Source: Okeania sp. SIO1I7
GTDB taxonomy: Bacteria > Cyanobacteriota > Cyanobacteriia > Cyanobacteriales > Microcoleaceae
DNA: 64,000 nt
Reading direction: 5' to 3'
Assembly (NCBI GenBank): GCA_010672585.1
Contig: JAAHGF010000020.1
Span: forward strand, 1 to 64,000
A program made the position numbers and the translations under genes. A model generated the notes under the pieces. It was not told the origin of the DNA. It did no database searches and saw only the letters and a program-made list of their open reading frames with translations. Positions within the stretch are counted from its first letter, which is position 1; the number at the start of each line of letters is the position of its first letter. Below are positions 11,993-28,100 of the stretch, one piece after another.

Positions 11993-12141
11993 ATTTATAG
12001 CAGTACAAAAATAGATTAGGACGTTTATAAATCCTCTTTGCGAAGCATTTCCGCAGGAAAAACTGAGTCAGGTATTACTTCTGACTTCTGACTTCTAACT
12101 TCTGACTTGCGCGTAGCGCCATATCACCTCCTTGACAAACC

Positions 12142-12174
12142 AAAAACCCTGGCGGACTATACTATCTGCCAGGG
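12142..12174 (-). terminator. Hairpin with T-tract in the rplJ leader (attenuator/terminator candidate)
   Basis: On the minus strand CCCTGGC (outer stem) pairs with GCCAGGG, with further inner pairing to about 10 bp around an ATAGTATAG loop, followed directly by TTTTTGG. It is 150 bp upstream of rplJ and 360 bp after rplA. The position fits either a terminator after rplA or an L10-controlled leader attenuator; a covariance search with the Rfam L10 leader model would separate them. Confidence 0.65.
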
Positions 12175-12335
12175 CAAAGAATTATGAATCCAAAACAAGT
12201 AACTTATTAAAGATTTCGACAAAAATCCCTTATAACTGTTTTTGAATTGTTAATCCTTGAACCTCGGCAGGAAATTAAGCTATTAGCACCTGCTGTCTTA
12301 AGCTCTTTGATTTTGTTTTTTTTAGCTTTAATCTT

Positions 12336-14467: not shown

Positions 14468-14688
14468 CCAAACACCACCCCAGCTGCCCAACTAAAGAAC
14501 TCATCTACTAGATAAATGATTGTTGCCGAGAGAATAACCATTAACAATACAGCAACAGACTCACTGATGAGCTGCTCTCTACTTGGCCATACTACTTTAT
14601 CTAGTTCTTCTTTTGTTTCTTTGAAAAAAGCTAGAAGCTGGAAACTTTCCTTGTTTTCTTGTACTCTAACTTCCTCTTTTTTGGCCAC
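14464..14688 (-). CDS. secE: Preprotein translocase subunit SecE
   Basis: 74 residues. The conserved amphipathic FFKETKEELDKVVWPSREQ is followed by a single membrane helix (VAVLLMVILSATIIYLV). It clamps SecY in the plasma and thylakoid translocon. The start codon is GTG, with GGGAG about ten bases upstream. The end overlaps nusG by four bases. Its 5' flank is taken up entirely by the structured element at 14710-15322. Confidence 0.95.
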   Translation of the reverse strand: MAKKEEVRVQENKESFQLLAFFKETKEELDKVVWPSREQLISESVAVLLMVILSATIIYLVDEFFSWAAGVVFG

Positions 14689-14709
14689 TATAAATTATCT
14701 CCCTAAGTT

Positions 14710-15322
14710 GTGACGTTCTCCCTAATTAAGCTAGCGCTATAACGAGGGCTTCCCTCCCTCACGGAAAAGGGCTTCCTGCTTTGCTGACGCAACGCTGCGC
14801 GAACAAAAGTTGAGCATCCTCTTCACCTCCACAGGCTCCAACGATGAGACCCACCGCCGTTTTGTACTGTCCAGTTCTGTACTCACCTAGCTACCTTCAA
14901 GATTTTACCTTTTCACGGAAATTACTAGGACTTCACCAGTTGACCCCCAGGGCTTGAGTTATCTAGATTCTGAAGTCAGGCGCGTATTACCGCTACTCCT
15001 GATGACATTAATTATAGCATAATTGAAGTTACTTTACTGTACAGATGAGTTTTTTTGCAGGTCGCGATTCCTCTCCCGTTAAATCGGAGATTATGAACGA
15101 AAGCGGCGGGAGCAGAGGACAGAGAGAGGGCAGAAGGAACAATTAATTGGATGGGGTTTTATACCCCAACAAGCTTGTAGACACTGCGAGTGACTATGGG
15201 GTATAAAACCCTTGTTCCCTTCGGTCACGGGCAGCGGAGCGGGAGCTGAAGACAGAATTCCTTTCTGCATAAGCGCCTCCTGCTCTCTGCCTTTCCTGAT
15301 AACGGGAGACCTCTCGCGACAT
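14710..15322 (-). ncRNA. Structured HEARO/omega-RNA-like element, copy 1, upstream of secE
   Basis: The minus strand runs from ATGTCGC (15322) to CGTCAC (14710). From about 15080 down to 14710 it is colinear and highly similar to 26965-27316, sharing words such as GGAGTAGCGGTAATACGC, GGCGGTGGGTCTCATCG, AGAGGATGCTCAAC and GGAAGCCCTCGTTATAGCGC. The 5' hairpin (GTCGCGA...CTCCCGTTA against TAACGGGAG...TCGCGAC) carries an extra ~210 bp in its loop (about 15086-15296). That insert itself folds by GGGGTTTTATACCCC (15153-15167) against GGGGTATAAAACCC (15198-15211). There is no nuclease ORF; secE begins 22 bases after the end. The family assignment to HEARO (IscB omega RNA) is from memory of its size and conserved words, not from a search. 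Confidence 0.5.
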
Positions 15323-15387
15323 TTAATTGGGTAGATATAAAAATATCTACGAATCAAAGAGTAACTTTATTAATTTTAAGGATTAAG

Positions 15388-15460
15388 CGCGCCCTGGAGG
15401 ACTCGAACCCCCGACATCAGGTTTTGGAGACCTGCGTTCTACCAACTGAACTAAGAGCGC
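15388..15460 (-). tRNA. trnW: tRNA-Trp (anticodon CCA)
   Basis: A 73-nt cloverleaf. The acceptor arms GCGCTCT and AGGGCGC pair with one G-U, and the discriminator base is G. The anticodon arm is CAGGT-CTCCAAA-ACCTG, giving CCA for UGG codons. The T-arm has GGTTCGAGTCC. The CCA end is not encoded. It sits between rplS and secE, a position shared with other cyanobacteria. Confidence 0.97.
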
Positions 15461-26790: not shown

Positions 26791-26944
26791 TGAGCAAGAG
26801 TAACTAGACTAAAATTAATAGACATTTCCAATATTAAAAAATAAGATCGATTATCTTAGGACCTGTCATCAATTCTTTCCTTCTACTCCCTACTCCCTAC
26901 TCCCTCTTTTCCGGAGGAGTCGAATGGTTGGGTAATCCCAACTA

Positions 26945-27316
26945 AATGTCGCTCTGGGTCTCCCATTATAATCTCCGATTTAACGGGAGGGGAATCGCGA
27001 CCTGCAAAAAAACAATTAACAAGAATTATGCTATGATTCTTCTCATCAGGAGTAGCGGTAATACGCACCTGACTTCAGAACCGAGACAACTCAAGATATG
27101 GGGTTCAACTGGTGAAGTCCTAGTAATTTCTGTGAGAAGGTAAAATCACAGAAGGTAGCTAGGTGAGTACAGAAATTTCAGTACAAAACGGCGGTGGGTC
27201 TCATCGTTTCTGCCTGTGGAAGTTAAGAGGATGCTCAACCTTGGAAGCAGGAAGCCCTTTTCCGTGAGGAAGGGAAGCCCTCGTTATAGCGCTAGCTTAA
27301 CGAGGGAGAACGTCAC
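26945..27316 (+). ncRNA. Structured HEARO/omega-RNA-like element, copy 2, upstream of clpP
   Basis: 372 nt from ATGTCGC to CGTCAC. It begins with a hairpin (CTCCCATTA against TAACGGGAG, with outer GTCGC/GCGAC), contains TTCTGTGA...TCACAGAA (about 27128-27152), and ends with a perfect 8-bp stem CCCTCGTT/AACGAGGG (27279-27307). It is homologous to 14710-15322 on the other strand but without that copy's loop insertion. Several helices are intact here and mismatched in copy 1, so this copy looks better preserved. There is no ORF; clpP starts 97 bp later in the same direction. The HEARO label is provisional. Confidence 0.5.
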
Positions 27317-27413: not shown

Positions 27414-28100
27414 ATGGTTATATCTCAATATTCTGATGATTTAGTTAATATCTATAACAAGTTACAAGTTTACTCCGGTCCTAGTAACATTGTGCCCATG
27501 GTTGTAGAACAATCAGGGATGGGAGAAAGAGCTTTTGACCTCTACTCACGGCTCCTCAGAGAAAGAATAATTTTTTTGGGGACTCCAGTAGACGATAATG
27601 TAGCTAATACCATTACTGCACAGATGTTATTCCTGGATGCTGAAGACCCAGAAAAAGATATTCAACTCTATATCAACTCCCCTGGAGGCTCTGTAACTGC
27701 TGGAATGGCTATATATGACACCATGCAGCAGGTACGGCCGGATGTTGTCACAATTTGTTACGGTTTGGCTGCAAGTATGGGAGCTTTTCTTCTTTCTGGT
27801 GGGACAAAAGGTAAAAGGATGTCCCTTCCTAGCTCTAGAATAATGATTCACCAGCCTCTAGGTGGGGCTCAAGGTCAAGCAGTAGATATTGAGATCCAAG
27901 CTAAAGAAATCTTATATCATAAACGTAAGCTGAATGAACTTTTATCAGCTCATACAGGCCAACCTCTAGAAAAAATAGAAGTTGATACAGACCGCGACTT
28001 CTTTATGTCCGCAGAAGAAGCCAAAAATTATGGCCTGGTCGATCAAGTGATTACTAAACAGAATCTTCCTGTACCAGGAGAATCTGTTCCTGCAATGTAA
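27414..28100 (+). CDS. clpP: ATP-dependent Clp protease proteolytic subunit
   Basis: A serine protease ring subunit. The catalytic triad S121 (GLAASMGAF), H146 (MIHQP) and D195 (DTDRDFF) has the E. coli spacing. About 30 extra N-terminal residues precede [13 protein letters not shown] and may be a propeptide. clpX follows after 12 bases, so the two are surely co-transcribed. Confidence 0.96.

Follow-up and report, generated by a model that had tools for sequence, protein, structure and literature searches.

A repeated, gene-less element with a putative TnpB-type guide RNA upstream of secE in Okeania sp. SIO1I7

The element in front of secE and its second copy

In the marine cyanobacterium Okeania sp. 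SIO1I7, a repeated, structured, non-coding element lies between trnW and secE, and a second copy lies upstream of clpP within the same window (the whole stretch of 64,000 nucleotides that was analysed; Table 1). The original prediction had described the trnW-secE interval as almost wholly one element homologous to 26945-27316, which is confirmed by an identity of 81% over copy-2 positions 24-372 (E 2.8e-108), and had placed its end 22 bases before secE, which is right to within a few bases (14710-15326 and 21 nt after refinement, the 3′ junction being set by the empty sites of two congeners, loci L112 and L113). Its further statements, that the element runs sense to secE and holds no ORF, agree with our reading: the RNA strand of copy 1 is the secE strand, and the only frame of at least 80 aa in the copy-1 region (15091-15357, 88 aa, TTG start) crosses the left end and a private insert, outside the part common to both copies.

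Copy 1 departs from a simple copy in that its left-end hairpin is interrupted and host DNA is missing beside its left end. The private insert of about 200 bp, which with its inverted repeats resembles another small repeat, is not present in L110, the copy at the same site in the congeneric genome G042. Elsewhere in the operon, an L10 leader (RF00557, 69 bits) is located as expected between rplA and rplJ (window 12132-12320, minus strand).

Table 1. Coordinates of the two element copies and adjoining features in the window
Feature	Position	Strand	Remarks
Whole element, copy 1	14710..15326	-	617 bp including the insert of about 200 bp; left end 15326, right end 14710
Conserved RNA region, copy 1	14710..15002	-	293 nt; 5′ start at hairpin UCAGG...CCUGA; from alignment A2 and covariation
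TnpB-reRNA-like scaffold, copy 1	14710..14860	-	R1 model match, 102.4 bits; homology to tnpB 3′ ends
Right-end hairpin, copy 1	14719..14748	-	sequence and helix 9 of the tested structure
Extended -10-like TATAAT after TGC, copy 1	15011..15016	-	14 nt 5′ of the conserved RNA start
Left-end hairpin, 3′ part, copy 1	15078..15094	-	alignment, locus comparison
Private insert, copy 1	15095..15300	-	breaks the left-end hairpin; inverted repeat around GGGTTTTATACCCCA; borders approximate
Left end, 5′ part, copy 1	15301..15326	-	adjoins flank CTACCCAA
secE leader	14689..14709	-	first 16-20 nt a putative guide by the reRNA layout (PMC8612924, accessible part)
secE start codon GTG	14686..14688	-	21 nt from the element 3′ end
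trnW	15387..15460
Element, copy 2	26942..27316	+	375 bp; clpP follows at 27414; site empty in G040 and G041
Conserved RNA, copy 2	27046..27316	+	271 nt
Extended -10-like TATGAT after TGC, copy 2	27032..27037	+

Ends, insertion sites and distribution of the family

The search for further copies that had been proposed with the prediction returned 42 places in the genome at E≤0.001, of which 13, counted by hand, hold interior sequence and most of the others match the first 72 bases only. Among 61 genomes of the taxonomic family, 11 match at E≤1e-10, including all five of the genus; at most 11 candidates were scored per genome, so that copy numbers there are lower bounds. Given the 42 places in its own genome and the 11 matching family genomes, this is a repeat family far beyond chance expectation. 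Relatives occur by the dozen elsewhere in the genus, and a scan of named genomes for the exact pattern (from which the records of the window's own genome were perhaps excluded) yielded 23 stretches, all in Okeania or Hydrocoleum, while one scan of viral contigs gave no match.

The ends were analysed in 56 aligned rows, some of them partial and one element counted twice (L088 is L097). The aligned 3′ end is GAACGTCAC in 41 rows and another sequence ending in GTCAC in nine, and it differs in the remaining six, some of which are partial copies; the flanks beyond it vary from site to site, except at shared sites. On the 5′ side a fixed target motif is present. Left ends were recognised by script in 35 rows, four of them false hits inside long copies and 21 further rows having no hit, and CCAA adjoins 27 of the 31 genuine ones (the exceptions being CTAA twice, ACAG and CCAG), as it does those four long copies when read by eye. 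Hairpins are present near both ends, and no target duplication was seen at the element sites, which fits the expectation for IS200/IS605 elements.

Congeneric genomes supply both occupied and empty sites. At secE, the element is found at the same place in G042 and only as its 3′ part, beside a broken tnpB, in G043; in G040 and G041 the site reads uninterrupted as AAAATCCAA/AACTTAGGG, and CCAA precedes a match to 15 of the first 16 guide bases there. In these two genomes, 324 bp of host DNA that are missing from the window genome lie between two CCAA sites, and the left end of copy 1 adjoins another CCCAA site; recombination between two left ends would explain the loss. At clpP, copy 2 is present in G042 (97% identity), an element lies nearby in the opposite orientation in G043, and the empty site in G040 and G041 is CCCAACTACCAA/TATTAG, which differs from the occupied one by a 7-bp CTACCAA, one such unit being missing when the element is there.

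Neither window copy contains a transposase gene, and the ends are common to elements that carry one: a Y1 tnpA at C16:134583-134948 adjoins such a left end and a tnpB. By sequence comparison, with terminal hairpins, a mostly CCAA flank and empty sites in two congeners, the element is a gene-less transposon of the IS200/IS605 type, similar to PATEs, under which name gene-less relatives of IS605 are known (PMC3119063, PMC7290912, both in their accessible parts). PATEs of Haloquadratum are likewise gene-less, with near-terminal palindromes, no target duplication and kinship to IS605-type elements; what the accessible part of PMC3119063 describes is their ends and core deletions and not a covarying guide RNA, whereas here a structured RNA of about 270 nt is kept.

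This mobility also bears on the idea that the element is a cis-regulatory leader of the secE operon, a riboregulator of the ribosomal-protein type that is repeated by chance. It stands 21 nt from secE in sense orientation and persists there in G000 (the window's genome), G042 and partly G043; however, it precedes many unrelated genes, and secE of two congeneric species lacks it, which makes this explanation very improbable. From their protein sequences we take the genes beside copies to be secE-nusG-rpl, clpP, prk, atpF, ndhN and porins.

Several observations concern variation within and around the family. In two cases, L103/L214 and L235/L098, copies that by eye appear to be of different subfamilies precede the corresponding gene at an identical position in different species. 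In the long copies L087, L140, L143 and L012, the opposite strand of the segment from left end to RNA holds a small ribbon-helix-helix-like frame, which is open in L087 and apparently broken in the others, with weak Pfam matches (DUF6290 and NikA-like) below the cut-off. A second gene-less family (L020 1160-1560, minus strand, and L022 1480-1740) has a similar right end, scores 39.8 bits (L020) and 37.1 bits (L022) with the R1 model introduced below, and shares a TATC flank with the RHH-tnpB elements L167 and L173.

A covarying RNA related to tnpB 3′ ends

The original prediction had depended on base pairing being conserved among genome copies, and across 39 copies the aligned sequences do have a conserved secondary structure whose stems covary. 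RNAalifold gives 34 pairs, 13 of them with changes on both sides. In the named structure 95.0% of cells pair, versus 87.8% in shuffled alignments and 33-51% with slid partners; the structure was partly derived from the same sequences, which flatters these figures, and relatedness inflates the shuffle control. Much of the covariation is carried by the right-end hairpin. When it is removed, three of five measures exceed every shuffle, with 62 cells changed on both sides versus 22.8 in shuffles (none of 500 as high); the other two are unremarkable, since 43 of 500 shuffles equal or exceed the seven pairs with both-side change and 391 of 500 the 25 further pair types. A further helix differs in its arms among copies (CCUAG/CUAGG, UCUAG/CUAGA, CCUGG/CCGGG; permutation p 1.5e-4 over 24 distinct arm pairs with kinship ignored, two of the 39 copies being unparsed and several pairing poorly), so that three subfamilies keep complementarity with different letters. 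Known reRNAs need a pseudoknot that joins the scaffold 3′ end to an upstream segment (PMC10711439, PMC10097598, accessible parts); a candidate helix here, 58-65 with 320-327, is 94.1% paired and nearly invariant, with one position unpaired. A pseudoknot formed by loop-tail pairing was unsupported in the TnpB group by eye.

Both the left end and the RNA lead to tnpB. The left end (copy-2 positions 8/12 to 54/64) is common, at 84-95% identity, to TnpB elements of the same genome (L013-L016, L018, L019, L023 and L024), whose flank is CCAA in seven of eight cases (TCAA in L019); the left ends in L092 and L099, from other genomes, have CCAA as well. The RuvC motifs GIDVG, VE(D/N)LN and DRDENAA, with their D, E and D, occur in all ten TnpB-group rows, a count in which some rows are one element taken from two loci, the L019 frame spans 231 residues only, and L013, L165, L167, L173 and L174 contribute no rows. 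An HMM of the 39 copies finds tnpB 3′ ends with its positions 143-273 (E 2.8e-12 to 2.2e-16). The match begins just past the zinc-ribbon codons and extends to the right end, which is the transposon boundary. For positions 1-142 a clear tnpB counterpart is missing, save in L024, where one begins at position 88.

A covariance model of the tnpB-matching part, the last 131 positions, was built from 34 of the 39 copies, five longer ones being dropped (model R1). In the TnpB group that shares the left end, six complete tnpB 3′ ends score 82.7-103.9 bits with R1, and the tnpB end of L023, which is truncated by the locus border, scores 49.4 bits. Among 30 tnpB loci (L043-L072), 23 are matched at E≤0.001 and seven do not reach it, versus none of 20 nusG control loci (20 of 26, with L109-L113 of the genus and L134 left out), where the best score is 17.6 bits (E 0.012, L114). 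In the window genome R1 has 74 matches; among the 24 listed, 13 lie away from tnpB and 11 at tnpB ends, as placed by hand against the best 150 of 293 tnpB candidates scored.

The 3′ part of the element thus matches a tnpB 3′ end plus right end, the region that encodes the TnpB reRNA. As given in the accessible part of PMC8612924, the reRNA is about 150 nt long and consists of the tnpB 3′ end, the right end and about 16 nt of flank, and the TAM equals the insertion target. No tnpB is found in either window copy, and the guide-RNA-like region is not encoded together with tnpB.

Apart from this, TnpB zinc-ribbon domains were located at no fewer than 150 places in the 9.5-Mb genome G000, where 150 of 293 candidates were scored; many of the frames are short or broken. 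The nusG control match in L114 (1036-1177), from another genus (G056), lies just upstream of secE and may be the decayed remnant of an old copy at this site.

Some tnpB genes were considered as parents and rejected. In G043, the broken tnpB that lies upstream of the secE copy (L111) was set aside because it is of a different TnpB type and its frame ends before the shared part. The RHH-tnpB elements L165, L167, L173 and L174 are more distant than the L014 group since R1 gives them only 22-37 bits; the HMM search found a weak match to the right end alone in three of them, with L173 not among the matches listed, and the left ends of L167 and L173 have a TATC flank.

The HEARO/omega-RNA character named in the original prediction is supported in part. 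What stands of it is a structured, covarying RNA of a mobile-element guide type; what falls is the HEARO/IscB identity, since RF02033 matches neither window copy at E≤10 and the kinship is to tnpB. TnpB reRNA is also called omega RNA. Genuine HEARO RNAs and IscB-type (RRXRR) genes do exist in this genome, where RF02033 finds eight places, three above the cut-off; yet the copies in seven other loci have no RF02033 match at E≤1, none of the four RRXRR places coincides with an element copy, and no iscB or relative was found downstream of the element, nor any sequence kinship to iscB loci. Looking for iscB or tnpB genes with matching RNAs, as had been suggested, gave the R1 matches at tnpB 3′ ends and no match overlapping HEARO in any of the ten HEARO/IscB loci analysed, out of 12; in one such locus, L035, a 29.6-bit R1 match sits just after a tnpB. 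An origin as HEARO/IscB omega RNA is hardly credible.

In L004 (G000:C17), an element copy is followed, after about 500 bases that include a tRNA-like sequence (by eye), by a HEARO match of 49.6 bits, which is below the cut-off. With the window copies Rfam gave a single match at E≤10, L17DE (14.5 bits); this and ar14 in other loci (23 bits) are both below their gathering scores and were taken as chance.

The guide-RNA homology could still have been inherited idly. As an ordinary PATE, the element would be a deletion derivative with an inert tnpB-tail interior, its structure coming from the parent and the end hairpins; a gene-less IS605-related class of this kind is described in the accessible part of PMC3119063, the weight of the right-end hairpin in the covariation suits it, and a retained reRNA could be passive baggage. 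The covariation that remains without this hairpin argues against it, as do the complementary helix kept with different letters in three subfamilies and the retention of the same 270-nt region in five congeneric species and other genera with the tnpB coding sequence gone. We consider an ordinary PATE improbable, though worth serious attention.

A proposed stand-alone guide-RNA transposon

We put at roughly 70% the probability that the element is a stand-alone transposon for a TnpB-type guide RNA that depends in trans on TnpA for movement and on TnpB for function, the secE leader acting as its guide. Mobility, gene loss, retained guide-RNA homology and covariation are evident from the comparisons above; transcription, the action of TnpB in trans and retention through cutting at CCAA plus guide we infer. 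A non-autonomous element of the IS200/IS605 type would have lost tnpA and tnpB and kept both hairpin ends together with a complete TnpB-type guide-RNA gene. TnpA from related elements would transfer it in single-stranded form to sites 3′ of CCAA. The RNA would start at its own putative promoter, pass the right end and take up 16-20 nt of flank, here the secE leader, as guide. TnpB in trans would bind this RNA and cut chromosome copies that have CCAA and the guide sequence without the element, and the element would be copied back into the cut, empty chromosome copy and so be retained. As a side effect, secE-nusG-rplKAJL would have acquired the element as its leader and perhaps also as its promoter.

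Promoter-like sites are consistent with the start assumed for this RNA. Among 38 copies with upstream sequence (the 39th row, L147, has none), the best -10-like hexamer lies 13-15 nt 5′ of the RNA in 21 and elsewhere in 17, and secE-type copies have a TGnTATAAT-like site in front of the RNA; in copy 1 a recognisable -35 is absent, and a sigma-70 scan did not call the TATAAT site. In the long-flanked loci, a co-oriented start codon is found no more than 60 nt away in 12 collapsed events, versus two events in mirror orientation; these counts rest on simple ORF calls. By hand reading, 22 of 35 events face the 5′ side of the next gene (one a tRNA, by eye) and 13 its 3′ side, the 35 having been obtained from 43 rows by omitting L217 and L220, where no nearby gene was assignable, and by collapsing six orthologous rows by hand.

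Such a pattern would also be left by a mobile promoter that survives by driving the downstream gene, the guide RNA being secondary. The 12 versus two events, the hexamers at a fixed place and the loss of the 324 bp of sister-species upstream DNA speak for it. The 13 events that face a 3′ side do not fit, and the bias is weak (nine versus two) once three events without a recognised left end are removed. We see this as a minority reading. Combining both aspects, a broader proposal is more doubtful than the stand-alone guide-RNA transposon itself and is offered tentatively: stand-alone TnpB guide-RNA genes that transpose by their own ends may have their guide rewritten at each jump, act with TnpB in trans as a gene drive in cyanobacteria with multi-copy chromosomes, and become promoter and leader of core genes again and again, their guide targeting the start region of the gene they drive.

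Among known systems, the preferred reading is close to the ISDra2 TnpB reRNA as set out in the accessible parts of PMC8612924 and PMC10097598: there, too, the scaffold is formed by the tnpB 3′ end and the right end and stops at the transposon boundary, the flank serves as guide (a role that is putative here), and the target motif lies 5′ of the insertion. Unlike ISDra2, the present element is without tnpB, has a promoter-like site before the RNA in many copies, is flanked by CCAA instead of TTGAT, and has a longer 5′ part without counterpart. HEARO (RF02033) is likewise a mobile-element guide RNA, with its guide in the 5′ spacer (PMC9755519, accessible part), and some HEARO copies in this genome also lie away from RRXRR genes; the element differs in having no match to the HEARO covariance model and in that its relatives are tnpB, not iscB. 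RAGATH-18 of IS607 TnpB is another TnpB guide scaffold of which many do not stand beside tnpB, 64% (10,258 of 16,029) adjoining IS607 TnpB according to the accessible part of PMC11061315; L17DE being the only Rfam match at E≤10, the element would differ from it as well, on the assumption that the Rfam library includes RAGATH-18. TnpB, which is regarded as ancestral to Cas12, is able to derive a guide from its own mRNA (PMC10278001, accessible part), and the accessible part of a preprint (PMC11870625) reports a gene drive by TnpB on multi-copy plasmids.

A literature search by title and start of abstract, with few subscription papers covered, found no stand-alone TnpB guide element among the entries listed. 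Altae-Tran 2021 reportedly described stand-alone IscB omega RNAs, and Meers 2023 is said to treat IS605 relatives and TnpB retention; either may already describe guide-only relatives.

If the proposal is true, a guide-only transposon would separate the guide from the nuclease, much as crRNAs are separate from Cas genes, and would illustrate the way in which an element that carries only a guide can spread. The paired occupied and empty sites would be natural material for testing TnpB-driven retention, and the secE locus would be a case of such an element taking over the leader of a core operon.
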